A DNA stretch of 64,000 bases, from assembly GCF_001984155.1 (NCBI RefSeq), contig NZ_MTQO01000028.1, forward strand, positions 1 through 64,000. Reading direction: 5' to 3'. The notes under the pieces were generated by a model, which did no database searches, was not told the origin of the DNA, and worked only from the letters and a program-made list of their open reading frames with translations. Source of the stretch: Actinosynnema sp. ALI-1.44. GTDB taxonomy: Bacteria > Actinomycetota > Actinomycetes > Mycobacteriales > Pseudonocardiaceae. A program made the translations under genes and the position numbers. This document shows, in pieces, positions 1-4,696 of this stretch (position 1 is its first letter; each line of letters begins with the position of its first letter).

Positions 1-202
1 GGACTCTCGGCCAGCACACAACGGGCTGGTACGTAACCAACACAGTGCACCCAGCGCCGGAAACCGAACCCCCGGCCGGAAACCGCACTCCAACGCAACC
101 AACAGCGCTAAAGCAATCAGACATTATCCGTTAAACCCAGCCCCAGCGACAAGCAGGCCACAAGTAGGCAGACCGTAACTCAACCGTGGCCACCGCTGGA
201 AA
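1..202 (+). repeat. Left arm of long inverted repeat
   Basis: This stretch is the reverse complement of 1437-1637 with about four mismatches and one single-base indel over roughly 200 bp. It is cut by the window edge, so the arm may be longer. It ends about 30 bp before the HNH gene and should hold that gene's promoter and leader. A transcript covering both arms could fold into a ~200-bp stem with the gene as its loop. Confidence 0.9.
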
Positions 203-231
203 AAAAGCACTGTTTCCGATAAACTGGACCT

Positions 232-1428
232 ATGCCCGAACAGCTCGCTGTTCCATTCCGTCCAGTGGGTCAACCACCACACATCCCGCTCACCGACATG
301 ACACGGGATCAAGTTCTCGACTTTTTGGTGGATCGTCACCGGCGACGTAACCAGATCGACGGCGAAATCGTGCAAGCGTACGCCCGGTTCGCGGAACTGA
401 CCCCGCCACAACGCAGCGGAATCACCATCGGCGACGGCGCGGCAGAAGAGATCGCGGTGGAACTGGCGGTCAGCCCCCACACCACCGCCAAACATTTGCA
501 CGAGGCCCAGGAGTTGGTGACTCGTCTGCCCGGGACGGTGTCAGCGCTGACGGCGGGCGAGATCGACGTCATGCGAGCCAAGGCCGTGCGGGAGTACACC
601 GCCGAATTGGACGACGACCAGGCCGCACAGGTGGAGAAGCGGGTGTTGGCGGGCGGGAAGCAAGAGAACCTGACCCGGTTCAAGCACGTCCTGCGGCGCG
701 AAGTCATCCGGGCGGATCCGCAGGGTGCCGAACAGCGTCGGTTGGCGGTGAAAGCCCAGCGGGATGTGACCCGGTGGCATCGGGCCGACGGGACCTCGAG
801 TCTTACTGTCCATTTGCAGCCGCATGAGGCGGAGTTGGCGTATCAGCACATTAACCTGCTCGCCGGACACGCCACAGGCGCAGGCCGGAATCTCGCGACG
901 GCGCGGGCGGATGTGTTCATGGACTTGATCGGCGGCAAACAGGTCGACCGGCCGCCGGTGAGTGTGAACGTGGTCGTGCCGATGACCACGTTGATGGGAT
1001 TGAACCAGGAACCCGGAGAGATCAGTGGGGTCGGGCCGATCACCGCTGAGTACGCGCGGGAGTTGGCGCGGAACGCGACCTGGCGGCGGGTGATCACCGA
1101 CCCCACCGGGCAGGTGCTGGAAGTGTCTCGGCGACGGTTCGCCTCACCCGGGTTGACCCGGTTCGTCCAGGCCCGCGACCGGGTGTGTCGGCAGCCTGGG
1201 TGCGCGGTGGTGGCACAGCGGTGCGAGGTCGATCATTCGGTCCCCTACGCCGAGGGTGGCGTGACCGGGGTGGGGAATGTCGCGATGTTGTGTAAGCGCC
1301 ACAACTTGATGCGGCAGCGCACTACCTGGCGGATGGATCAGGTGATGCCCGGGGTGCTGGCTTTTACCACTCCAGGCCGTAGGACTGTGCTTACCACGCC
1401 CGTTGGGTATGACGTTCCGCCGTTTTAG
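232..1428 (+). CDS. DUF222 / HNH endonuclease domain protein (13E12 repeat family)
   Basis: 398 aa, ATG start. The N-terminal two thirds are the helical DUF222 domain. The C-terminal part is an HNH nuclease: a CxxxxC pair near residues 315-320 (CRQPGC), the VDHSVPYAEGG core near 332 and CKRHN near 353, the usual zinc-binding betabeta-alpha layout. The family includes the mycobacterial 13E12 repeat proteins; these are predicted DNA nucleases and their biological role is unsettled. The gene lies exactly between the two arms of a long inverted repeat and has no operon partner. The last ~20 codons are richer in T-ending codons than the body. The domain call is firm and the cellular role is unknown. 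Confidence 0.9.
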   Translation: MPEQLAVPFRPVGQPPHIPLTDMTRDQVLDFLVDRHRRRNQIDGEIVQAYARFAELTPPQRSGITIGDGAAEEIAVELAVSPHTTAKHLHEAQELVTRLPGTVSALTAGEIDVMRAKAVREYTAELDDDQAAQVEKRVLAGGKQENLTRFKHVLRREVIRADPQGAEQRRLAVKAQRDVTRWHRADGTSSLTVHLQPHEAELAYQHINLLAGHATGAGRNLATARADVFMDLIGGKQVDRPPVSVNVVVPMTTLMGLNQEPGEISGVGPITAEYARELARNATWRRVITDPTGQVLEVSRRRFASPGLTRFVQARDRVCRQPGCAVVAQRCEVDHSVPYAEGGVTGVGNVAMLCKRHNLMRQRTTWRMDQVMPGVLAFTTPGRRTVLTTPVGYDVPPF

Positions 1429-1436
1429 CTGCCTGC

Positions 1437-1637
1437 TTTCCAGCGGTGGCCACGGTTGAGTTACGGTCTGCCTACTTGTGGCCTGCTTGTCGCCGGGGCT
1501 GGGTTTAACGGATAATGTCTGATTGCTTTGCGCTGTTGGTTGCGTTGGAGTGCGGTTTCCAGCCCGGGGTTCGGTTTCCGGCGCTGGGTGCACTGTGTTG
1601 GTTACGTACCAGCCCGTTGTTTGCTGGCCGAGAGTCC
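1437..1637 (-). repeat. Right arm of long inverted repeat
   Basis: Reverse complement of 1-202 at about 97% identity, starting 8 bp after the HNH stop codon. The frames open across it are mirrored copies of frames in the left arm and look non-coding. Similarity can be traced only to 1637 because the left arm meets the window edge. Confidence 0.9.
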
Positions 1638-1741
1638 CTGACAGAAGATTTTGACGTGTCGGTAGCCGAGGAACGCCTCGTGGGTGTCGGCTCGGCGATC
1701 ACGTGGTGCTTGATCCTGGCCGGGTGCGATCGACTGGACTC

Positions 1742-1759
1742 GGCTCACGATCATGAGCC
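1742..1759. terminator. Small hairpin after the ferredoxin gene, possible terminator
   Basis: GGCTCA-cgatca-TGAGCC forms a 6-bp stem 37 bp past the stop of the minus-strand redox operon. There is no T tract. Nothing else recognisable lies between the right arm and the ferredoxin gene. Confidence 0.3.
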
Positions 1760-1795
1760 TTCAGGCACCGCAAGTGATTAGCTTGTTAGCAACTC

Positions 1796-1996
1796 TTAGC
1801 GGTTGCTCAGGCTCAGGGCGAGTTTGGGGCACAGCGTGACCGCTTTGCGCGCGTGCTTGCGCAGTTCCCGCGGCACCGGGGCGTTGGCGAGCACGGGATA
1901 GCCCCACTCGTCCAGGCCGATCAGCTCGGGCACCAGTTCGGCGCACACGCCGTGGCCGTCACAGGCGATCATGTCGACTTTCAGCTGCTCGGTCAT
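1796..1996 (-). CDS. Small [3Fe-4S] ferredoxin
   Basis: 66 aa from the ATG that overlaps the stop of the upstream NuoF-like gene (ATGA). The motif C-D-G-H-G-V-C (C-x5-C) near residues 10-16 plus a late C-P gives three cysteine ligands, the pattern of actinobacterial [3Fe-4S] ferredoxins such as those serving cytochromes P450. No P450 is nearby. As the last gene of the redox operon, translationally coupled to the NuoF-like protein, it most likely exchanges electrons with that protein in the cytoplasm. A longer upstream reading exists but lies inside the preceding gene. Confidence 0.85.
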   Translation of the reverse strand: MTEQLKVDMIACDGHGVCAELVPELIGLDEWGYPVLANAPVPRELRKHARKAVTLCPKLALSLSNR

Positions 1997-3249
1997 CGCC
2001 AGTCCTCGCTTTCCGCTGGCAACTCGGGAATGGGCAGGACACGGGGGCCGCCGGGGCACGGCTGGCCGGACAGGTGCCGTCGGATGTCCAGCGCGAACGT
2101 CTTCAGCGCCGAGTCGACGAACTTCACCACGCCGTCGGGATGCGCGCACGCTCCCCTGCCGTTGACCACACCGAGCCGGAAGCGCAGCCGCTCGTAGGCC
2201 GCGCGGGAACAGTCACGGGCGATCATCGCGAAGTCGTCGGCGATCGCGGGCAAGCCCTTGAAACACGGGCCGCACTGGTTGGCTGTCTGCGCCGCCATCC
2301 ACGAGGCGACCCGGACAGTCTCGAACAGCCCGCACGTCCGCGCGGGCAGCGCCACCACGATCCCCGCGCCGAGCGAGGCACCCAGTGGCGCCAGGCCCTC
2401 CGGGGAGAACGGGCGGTGCAGCTGGGTCGGCGGGATCCACGCGCCGCCGTAACCACCGACCAGCAGCGCGGAGATCGGTTCACGGCACCCGTTGGCCACC
2501 CGCAGGATCGTCTCGCCGCTGACACCCACCGGCAGTTCGTACACGCCCGGGTTGCGCACCGCGCCGCTGACGGTGAACAGGGCGGTGCCGGGCGCGTCCG
2601 CGGTTCCGGCCTGGCGGAACCAGTTCGGGCCGTAGCGGGCGATCAACGCGATGTGCGCAAACGTTTCCACATTGGATACGAGGGTCGGCCGCCCGTCGAC
2701 CCCGGACACCCTGGCCGAGTCCGCCTTCGGCCGCGCCTCACCGCCGCCGACGAAACCGGCTACGGCGGTCGACTCGCTGGAGACGTACCGGCTCGGCGGC
2801 TCGGACACGTCGATCTCGACCTCACCCCACCCGGCCGCGACCCGGTCGGCGATCGCGCTCAGCACGTGACCGGCGAGCCCGGTGCCGCGGTGGACGGCGA
2901 CCGTGATCCGGTCGGCGCCGACGGCGAGCGCGGCGAGTTCCGCGCCGTCGAGCACCAGGTGCGGAGCCAGGCGCAGCAGCAACTTGTCCTTGCCGGAGGC
3001 CGGTTCGCCCTCCATCCCGTTCACCACGACGTACCGGTTGTCCCGGCCGAAGACGGACGCCATCTTGCGCCCGCTGGGAAACCACCCGCCGCCGCGGCCG
3101 CGCAGGCCGGACGCGGTGACCAGGTCGATCAGCTGCGGCACGACACTCTTGGGCAGCGGTCCGACAGCACGCATGTGTTCGGCGATGGACGCGGCCTGTC
3201 TGCTCAGCAGGCGTGGCCGTCCGTCGTACCGTTGTTGGGGTGCGCTCAC
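1993..3249 (-). CDS. NuoF-like NADH-binding / Fe-S protein
   Basis: 418 aa from a GTG that overlaps the previous stop (GTGA). It resembles the 51-kDa complex I subunit: the FMN/NADH motif GRGGGWFPSG near 47-57, VVNGMEGEPASGKDK after it, a central SLBB-like segment, and a C-terminal Fe-S region with NQCGPC near 325 and GACAHPDG near 368. Aligned by eye with the NuoF motif SCGxCxPCRxG, the first cluster cysteine is Ala, so the cluster may be 3Fe-4S or absent. It probably passes electrons between NAD(P)H, the downstream ferredoxin and the membrane protein encoded upstream. It is a stand-alone paralogue, with no other nuo genes nearby. Confidence 0.8.
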   Translation of the reverse strand: MSAPQQRYDGRPRLLSRQAASIAEHMRAVGPLPKSVVPQLIDLVTASGLRGRGGGWFPSGRKMASVFGRDNRYVVVNGMEGEPASGKDKLLLRLAPHLVLDGAELAALAVGADRITVAVHRGTGLAGHVLSAIADRVAAGWGEVEIDVSEPPSRYVSSESTAVAGFVGGGEARPKADSARVSGVDGRPTLVSNVETFAHIALIARYGPNWFRQAGTADAPGTALFTVSGAVRNPGVYELPVGVSGETILRVANGCREPISALLVGGYGGAWIPPTQLHRPFSPEGLAPLGASLGAGIVVALPARTCGLFETVRVASWMAAQTANQCGPCFKGLPAIADDFAMIARDCSRAAYERLRFRLGVVNGRGACAHPDGVVKFVDSALKTFALDIRRHLSGQPCPGGPRVLPIPELPAESEDWR

Positions 3250-3785
3250 AGCGATCGCCGCCGTACCGACACGACGCGCAAGCTGCCGCACCCGAGCACC
3301 ACCGCGACGCTGGCACCGATGGTGATCAACGCCCAGAGTTGATCCGTGCCGATCCCGATGGTGTGCACGACGGCCACCGGCCAGCTGACGTACGCCGCCC
3401 AGTGGATGAACCGCCAGACGCGGTACGGCATCCTCGTGCGCAGGACACCGGTCAGCACCAGGACCAGGATCAGGTCGAGTGCGATCGCGCCGAGCCCGAG
3501 GTAGAGCGGCGAGTAGCCGCCGATGAACGGCACGAACACCTCGACGAGGCCGATGGACACGTAGGTGTCGAGCACAACCGAGCCGACGTGGATGGCCAGG
3601 AAGATCAGCGAGGCCATGGAGATGTTGCGGTGCAACGACTCGGTCACGAACCGGGGCCACTGCCGCGAGCTCACGCGCCCGGCCGTCAGCAGTCCGAGCG
3701 AGACCGCGACGGTGAACAGCACGAGCGAGACGATCCCGCTCCCCCTCGCCAGGTACCAGTAGGTGCTCTCGCCAAGGAACGTCAT
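3246..3785 (-). CDS. Ferric-reductase-like transmembrane protein
   Basis: 179 aa with about five or six hydrophobic segments. Histidines in SLHRN...AIH and FIHW...VVHT match the paired heme-b ligands of ferric-reductase-like / MsrQ-type membrane domains. No FAD/NAD domain is attached, so the electron donor must be separate, probably the NuoF-like protein and ferredoxin of the same operon. The ATG at 3785 overlaps the apbE stop (TGATG), with a GGAGG just upstream; a GTG one codon earlier is the alternative. It sits in the cytoplasmic membrane and could move electrons across it. The final acceptor is not known. Confidence 0.8.
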   Translation of the reverse strand: MTFLGESTYWYLARGSGIVSLVLFTVAVSLGLLTAGRVSSRQWPRFVTESLHRNISMASLIFLAIHVGSVVLDTYVSIGLVEVFVPFIGGYSPLYLGLGAIALDLILVLVLTGVLRTRMPYRVWRFIHWAAYVSWPVAVVHTIGIGTDQLWALITIGASVAVVLGCGSLRVVSVRRRSL

Positions 3786-4696
3786 CACTCCTCCTCAGGC
3801 CATTCGGCCACAGTGGTGACGGCACCACCCGTCGCCACGAGGCGCGCGGGGAGCCTGCGCGCGGCAAGCCAGTTCGGTGCGCGGTCGCCGAGCACGAGCG
3901 CGGCGGTCGATGCAGTGTTGGCCGCGACGCACGAGGCCGCGGAAACGCTTGCGTACTGCCAGAACCGGGCGGCCGGAAATCCGGTCGCCGGGTCGAGGAC
4001 GTGGTGCAGCCGCCGGTCACCCCGCTGCCAGGAGCGCACGCTCACGCTCGACGTGGCCAGGCCGCCGGAGTCGATCGCCACCACCTGGCCGCCTTGGTCG
4101 CTGGCGTGGTCGGCGGTGACCCGCACGCTCCAGCCGCCGTCCGGCGCTGCACCGGCGACCGCGACGTCGCCGCCGAGGTTCACCAGCACACCGGCACCGG
4201 TCTCACCGGCGATCCGCCGGGCGGCGACGTCGGCGGCCCACGCCTTCGCGGTGGCCCCGAGGTCCACTTTGACTCCGCGAGGGACAGTCACAGTGTCGCC
4301 GGTGACCGTGATGTCCCGCCACACCTGCCGGGCGGGCGGCGCGTCGATGTCCACAGTGGTCGGTCCGCGTCTCGGGACCTCGGCGAAAGTGCGGTCGTAG
4401 CCGAGAGTGATCATGTACGACCCCAGCGCGGGATCGACGAGCCCGCCGGTGTCCTCGGCCGCGCGCAGCGCCACGCCGACCGCCTGGGCCAGCAGCGGAT
4501 GCGTCGCCGACCCCGTGCGGTTCAACAGGCTCAACGCCGAGTCGGCGCGAAACCGGCTGCACGCCAGGTCGAGTTCGTCGAGCACCCAGCGCGACATCGT
4601 TTCCGCGACCGGCAGCGTGTCCGGTCTGGTGACCAGCACGTGCGCGGTGGTGCCGATGGCGTCGAACCGCACCCCGCTGATCATGGCGGTGGTCAT
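3785..4696 (-). CDS. apbE: FAD:protein FMN transferase
   Basis: 303 aa. ApbE-family enzymes attach FMN from FAD to a threonine of target proteins, usually extracytoplasmic redox proteins. Seen here are the SRFRADSALSLLN segment, VDLGATAKAWAAD, LVNLGGDVAVAG, and the C-terminal HHVLDPATGFPA near residue 232, all family hallmarks around the Mg and FAD sites. No clear lipobox or signal peptide is visible, unlike many ApbE proteins. It is the second gene of the redox operon. No FMN-binding (PF04205) partner is found next to it, so its substrate is unknown. Confidence 0.9.
   Translation of the reverse strand: MTTAMISGVRFDAIGTTAHVLVTRPDTLPVAETMSRWVLDELDLACSRFRADSALSLLNRTGSATHPLLAQAVGVALRAAEDTGGLVDPALGSYMITLGYDRTFAEVPRRGPTTVDIDAPPARQVWRDITVTGDTVTVPRGVKVDLGATAKAWAADVAARRIAGETGAGVLVNLGGDVAVAGAAPDGGWSVRVTADHASDQGGQVVAIDSGGLATSSVSVRSWQRGDRRLHHVLDPATGFPAARFWQYASVSAASCVAANTASTAALVLGDRAPNWLAARRLPARLVATGGAVTTVAEWPEEE

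Follow-up and report, generated by a model that had tools for sequence, protein, structure and literature searches.

A dispersed DUF222-HNH gene unit with long inverted arms suggests a mobile element of a kind that has received little study

The stretch of DNA analyzed here, referred to as the window, comprises 64,000 nucleotides of genome G000 (G000:C23:1-64000), position 1 being the first base of contig C23. At its left end, one intact DUF222-HNH gene of 398 aa (232-1428, forward strand), described by its open reading frame, Pfam matches, dN/dS and invariant residues, lies between two arms that are 97.5% identical in inverted orientation. The left arm (1-202, reverse strand) ends 29 bp before the start codon and the right arm (1437-1637, forward strand) begins 8 bp after the stop codon, so that the tight bracketing described in an earlier note on this DNA holds; a repeat search on the window recovered the arm pair in two ungapped blocks at 96% identity. 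The left arm also matches the arms of other copies at 91-97%, and it is complete up to an IS terminus, where the contig begins. The spacer between left arm and gene (203-231, forward strand) contains TAAACT at 220-225, six bases ahead of the ATG; judged by eye and by the leaderless rule, it is a candidate -10 box for a leaderless promoter. Beside the right arm is an internally deleted copy of an 898-bp element (1631-1799, reverse strand; IS positions 895-805, 492-438 and 53-1), assigned to the IS4/5 family by Pfam, and at its outer tip each arm has a few bases that already look like an IS terminus. The arms are not an assembly artefact, a possibility that the earlier note had raised: in three other copies (C37:208604-210226, C48:237180-238806 and C13:48622-50675), neither arm touches a contig end, and G002, a relative assembled as a single contig, has five paired-arm units. 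Thirteen contig ends of the 54-contig G000 assembly fall within a unit or an arm, which shows that the repeat breaks the assembly.

Pfam identified DUF222 (E=1.1e-17) and HNH (E=0.0029) in the encoded protein and, beyond these, just a weak HTH_10 match. The HNH match scores 18.2 bits, under the curated cut-off of 21.4, yet the conserved D-H...N...H-N residues are present, with D334, H335, N349, H357 and N358 invariant in nine aligned proteins. An AlphaFold model based on six sequences had a mean pLDDT of 59.9 and was good mainly at residues ~20-170, all helical; compared with the PDB by Foldseek, it had 322 matches at E<=10, none of which reached E<=0.001. A sequence search of the PDB gave two weak matches, to Pumilio (E=0.01) and to the HNH part of Cas9 (8d2k, E=0.028). 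A defence gene and carriage by phages or plasmids were both rejected. The best PADLOC match, which would indicate a defence gene, had E=0.028, and for plasmid and phage carriage, matches at 27-38% identity were found in 4 of 72,556 plasmid records and 7 of 50,697 phage records. Viral contigs searched with patterns from alignment A2 yielded no relatives.

The earlier note had anticipated further copies in the same genome, and G000 contains at least 10, counted by their 5' ends (the window copy in C23, C37, C48:237180, C27, C15, C21, C13:2, C49:1, C24 and C13:48622). Three 3' pieces at contig ends (C48:1, C25 and C33) may belong to the truncated copies among these. The C13:48622 copy (L026:3060-4400) is interrupted by an element with one ORF that encodes rve integrase and HTH_21 domains, as in IS3-type elements. 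The gene is under strong purifying selection in G000: across the 36 pairs formed by nine copies (five complete genes and four cut by contig ends), dN/dS is 0.07-0.18 and dS is 0.115-0.370 (mean 0.25), and the genes have no internal gaps and no stops inside. Purifying selection on copies this old fits a protein that is needed for the persistence of its own copy, as well as any other role in which the protein is needed. The left and right arms are interchangeable and act as one pool; when seven partial arms are left out, they differ by 0.066 between left arms (28 pairs), 0.054 between right arms (36 pairs), 0.063 between left and right arms of different copies (68 pairs) and 0.069 between the two arms of one copy (4 pairs, 0.021-0.103). 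Change in the non-coding arms amounts to about a quarter of that at synonymous sites, as judged from uncorrected distances for the arms against corrected distances for the genes. Gene conversion among copies could be an alternative cause of the similarity of the arms.

Paired-arm units were found in five of the eight genomes searched from the genus (Kibdelosporangium group): G000, G001 (L082-L084, L094 and L095; arms of 213-256 bp, 88-93% identical), G002 (L069-L073; 154-210 bp in four units, with separate blocks of 101 bp and 46 bp in the fifth, L071; 81-87%), G003 (L052; 380 bp, 84%) and G007 (L085-L087, L089 and L090; 116-182 bp, 92-96%). The prospect that the unit would prove to be single-copy in all relatives, which the earlier note had named as grounds for doubt, was not borne out, as it is multi-copy in G001, G002 and G007. 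The armed G003 unit is apparently single-copy. Single left arms lie next to DUF222 genes in L075 (G004) and L078 (G006), and next to a gene remnant in L081 (G001). At L089 (G007:C9), a 43-bp inverted match continues beyond the arms (L089:1105-1148 and 2675-2718), as though the insertion had hit the centre of a host palindrome; we rejected such locus-specific extensions as a general feature, this being one unit of 16. Slow change of the arms relative to synonymous sites was observed in several genomes. Mean dS between copies compared with mean arm difference was 0.46 versus 0.10-0.17 in G002 (four copies), 0.52 versus 0.05-0.06 in G007 (five copies), 0.29 versus 0.035-0.07 in G001 (three copies) and 0.70 versus 0.13-0.18 in G013 (three copies), with dN of 0.026-0.054 across these copies. 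G035 runs contrary to this pattern, with a low dS between two loci and a difference of 0.29 between left and right arms, averages that count one locus twice, so that the real differences between the two loci are about 1.5 times these values.

A search for PF02720 covered 30 genomes from the family and another 30 from the class. Our survey covered 139 loci, 40 of them from the genus, including 12 without a DUF222 ORF and several that were entered twice (L130 lies inside L194). Paired arms flank 22 of the 127 loci with a DUF222 ORF, a proportion that does not represent a frequency because multi-copy groups were deliberately sampled and some loci appear twice. L083, positive for an inverted repeat in the analysis of the genus, was missed in the survey scan, where two matches merge. 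Outside the genus, armed loci occur in G013 (a group with proteins of 382 aa; L166-L169), in G035 and at one locus of G014, where the arms lie ~300 bp from the matched gene and the copies share much longer stretches. The copies in G015, G022, G026, G029 and another G013 group have no paired arms, and the sequence that such armless copies have in common stops at most 31 bp short of, and at most 63 bp past, the point where the matched protein region ends, with pairs of a locus with itself set aside. Among the armless copies of G015 (L107, L124 and L176-L181; tens in the genome), the C-terminal end varies from copy to copy. Because both armed and armless multi-copy groups were found, the DUF222-HNH family spreads in two forms. 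On a tree of 69 hand-picked rows, the armed label requires 7 changes, at least 6 of them forced by starred branches, compared to a mean of 17.6 for shuffled labels (0 of 500 shuffles as low). In the part of the tree that covers the genus, all four multi-copy lineages are armed and nine rows without a close paralogue are unarmed. A rule that arms occur only in multi-copy lineages was nevertheless rejected, since it is contradicted by L052, which lies outside the tree.

The arms have a conserved core of ~77 bp, with the consensus TGGTnACnTTGGAGT - TTCCAGC - CCRGCGCTGG - TGGTTnCnTTCCAGC over 35 aligned arms from seven genomes (G000, G001, G002 and G004-G007), chosen by similarity to the window arm. 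The core occupies 25-101 in the left arm (reverse strand; motifs at 25-39, 51-60, 74-82 and 87-101) and 1537-1613 in the right arm (forward strand; motifs at 1537-1551, 1556-1564, 1578-1587 and 1599-1613). Pairs of TTCCAGC are spaced 49-50 bp apart in all eight arms of L069, L073, L085 and L089. From its motif pattern, the core looks like a putative multi-site protein-binding array. In G007, the core is reversed relative to the gene, which argues against a promoter; indifference to orientation fits a binding array better. Arm sequences in G001, G013 and G035 are unlike those of the window. The G001 arms contain a different module of ~147 bp, bounded by inverted GGCTCGATTTkAC. In L081, this module is found next to a core arm, and L078 has one of its boundary motifs, suggesting that arms are modular. 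Just outside the left arm of L069 (G002) is a 55-bp self-palindrome (L069:1346-1400), half of which resembles the G001 boundary motif. By eye, the G013 arms have no motif in common with the core arms.

The earlier note had also proposed an RNA with a 200-bp stem. The two arms of the window copy could indeed pair almost perfectly, and they might act as RNA in this way or as an antisense RNA controlling the gene. The comparison of arms disfavors this proposal. Single arms fold no better than shuffled sequences (z of 0.13 and -1.57), and a structured RNA was rejected after Rfam gave no match for window positions 1-1850 or nine solo-arm loci. Moreover, a G002 unit's own two arms are 17% different, compared to 10-11% between same-side arms of different copies, so it is not their complementarity that is maintained. 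The left-right difference is larger still in G035 (29%), and the core also occurs reversed. An RNA function of the arms therefore seems very improbable to us.

IS sequence is a frequent neighbor of the unit in G000. The 898-bp element is intact in G004, where it is found at four places and carries IS4/5-family and DDE_Tnp_1 domains in two overlapping frames (Pfam). Sequence matching it adjoins the arms at 14 of 17 G000 loci, in most cases as pieces with internal deletions, and C48:1, C25 and C49:372140 have no match to it. An IS terminus is often at the arm end; in four arms, however, the junction is at IS position 181, and in one arm at position 802. Both copies compared with G005, the nearest relative by flank identity, have an empty site there, as the earlier note had envisaged: the C37 copy is in a 2,038-bp insertion after CGCTTAG, where G005 has 24 bp, and the C48 copy is in a 2,361-bp insertion where G005 has 54 bp. 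Target duplications, sought on the same grounds, were found for no unit. Empty sites were also sought for L089 (G007) and L069 (G002), whose flanks are not syntenic in the relatives. IS remnants lie at the edges of both tested insertions, which the IS transposase may therefore have moved. IS copies are present at both block ends in C48 and C13b, and C37a has remnants on both sides with an IS terminus at the left edge only.

One interpretation of these findings is that the unit is passive cargo, caught between IS4/5-family copies and spread in G000 as a composite transposon by the IS transposase, with the HNH protein uninvolved. The prevalence of IS sequence at the G000 loci speaks for it, as do the position of C37a directly after CGCTTAG with an IS end at its left edge, the IS remnant-unit-IS remnant structure of C48 and the recurrence of some flank structures between copies. 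However, none of 40 loci in the seven other genomes (L057-L096) matches the 898-bp IS or has the IS-flanked arrangement of a composite transposon, yet the units are multi-copy in three of these genomes. In addition, flank structures differ between copies, suggesting that many copies were not made as one block, and selection on the HNH gene is left unexplained. We regard passive carriage as a genuine but tentative possibility, and the association with the IS as probably a matter of nesting and partial hitch-hiking special to G000. The earlier suggestion of a mobile or self-copying unit is supported for mobility, given at least 10 copies, the same layout in relatives and empty sites in two of two comparisons, and not for self-copying, given the IS remnants at both tested insertions.

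Arms also occur without the gene. In G005, arm-like repeats lacking a gene were detected at L060-L068 (no DUF222 found in the nine loci), L215 and L216. L058 contains two gene-less inverted arms ~190 bp apart; some 890 bp at this place are missing from G000, and either G005 may have gained them or G000 may have lost them; in other relatives the L058 flanks are separated by 3-9 kb. The solo arm L066 is absent from G000, with just one flank syntenic. One gene, TetR-like by eye, has on its 3' side the solo arm L062 in G005 and the unit L069 in G002, both in the same direction; no arm was found in the stretches matching L062 in G000, G001, G003, G004, G006 and G007. Solo arms, the gene-less pair in L058 and the coincidence of L062 with L069 could be explained if the HNH protein cut a site inside scattered arm-like repeats and gene conversion copied the unit in, the arms being target and homology instead of transposon ends. 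REP13E12 loci are reported as gene-conversion hotspots (PMC13061034), which would suit such homing. Insertion into one arm would split that arm, yet a whole inverted arm is present on each side, and the two empty sites in G005 show no arm sequence; we consider homing unlikely. Alternatively, the copies could be a host gene family that arose by ordinary duplication, each copy serving the host and the arms acting as a common regulatory sequence. Low dN/dS in old, diverged copies would be expected in this case, but the copies lie in unrelated surroundings, gene-less arms exist and two of the sites are recent insertions relative to G005, leaving this explanation with very little probability.

The interpretation that we favor, with moderate confidence, is that the window unit belongs to a dispersed, REP13E12-like set of mobile units, each composed of a DUF222-HNH endonuclease gene and two inverted arms that serve as cis-acting, protein-binding ends, and that in G000 it is also entangled with, and probably partly carried by, the IS. 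It draws on the dispersal in many copies, the slow change of the arms, the selection on the gene, the arms without a gene, the two empty sites and the lack of the IS at the 40 loci of the other genomes. Each arm, with its phased motif array, would most likely be bound by the unit's own DUF222-HNH protein, which would bring the two arms together and cut or nick at the ends or at the target. Host repair would then copy the unit elsewhere, so that cutting by the encoded protein would drive copying. Gene-less arms could be scattered by the same route. For the IS remnant-unit-IS remnant blocks inserted at two sites in G000, part of the spread is probably hitch-hiking. Against a mobile unit with protein-bound ends stand the many multi-copy DUF222 groups that spread without arms, the armed yet seemingly single-copy L052, the IS remnants at both empty sites and the lack of a target duplication at any unit. 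A broader and rather doubtful proposal is that these units represent a class of bacterial transposable elements driven only by an HNH (His-Me finger) nuclease, with long inverted ends bearing iterated binding sites and non-autonomous single-arm derivatives, gained or lost several times within the DUF222 family. Should the arms be the ends that the protein acts on, this actinobacterial family could be tested on a defined DNA substrate, and the unit could be a case of HNH-driven transposition.

Among known systems, the REP13E12 (13E12) family of mycobacteria, a repeat of ~1.4 kb reportedly described in 1999, is a dispersed repeat with a DUF222 and HNH gene, and the window unit likewise combines such a gene with at least 10 dispersed copies. 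REP13E12 is listed among repetitive elements in the accessible part of PMC10589994, and the kinship asserted in the earlier note agrees with its naming there and with the DUF222 and HNH domains, the two being compared by description; unlike in the window unit, paired arms are not mentioned in that part of the text. According to PMC13061034, REP13E12 repeats have no defined biological function, yet are among the most recombined loci of their genomes. The armless DUF222-HNH units in G015, G022, G026, G029 and one G013 group are also dispersed single-gene units of the same protein family, but they differ in having no paired arms and in that their common sequence ends near the gene end. RAYT/REPIN systems similarly pair a single nuclease gene with inverted repeats, and the genomes that carry them also have repeats without the gene (PMC3116915). 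The window unit differs in having an HNH protein in place of the tyrosine (HUH) transposase of RAYTs, and 200-bp arms in place of the short REP hairpins; Pfam found no Y1 HUH transposase in the window protein, and a single arm forms no unusually stable hairpin by the z-scores above. KolobokP elements place an internal His-Me finger endonuclease region between long terminal repeats and also occur as solo repeats (PMC9587614), but they are found in animals and have direct terminal repeats and their own DDE transposase. Searches of the literature, with subscription journals mostly outside their coverage, found no description of an armed DUF222 element or an HNH-only bacterial element. The copies of the armed unit in G000 and its versions in relatives suggest a kind of mobile element that has seen little study.

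The IS4/5-family element whose remnants flank the G000 loci is distinct from the unit, which has no DDE transposase and whose arms are not IS sequence. One of its four copies in G004 (L204; G004:C2:1151700-1153400) is flanked on both sides by inverted repeats of 400 bp with 99.75% identity. A further repeat, starting TACTGCAACGACAGG, adjoins the IS remnants beside two G000 units (L019 at ~2616-4000 and L026 from 4865), and inside C27 it seems by eye to cut an arm.
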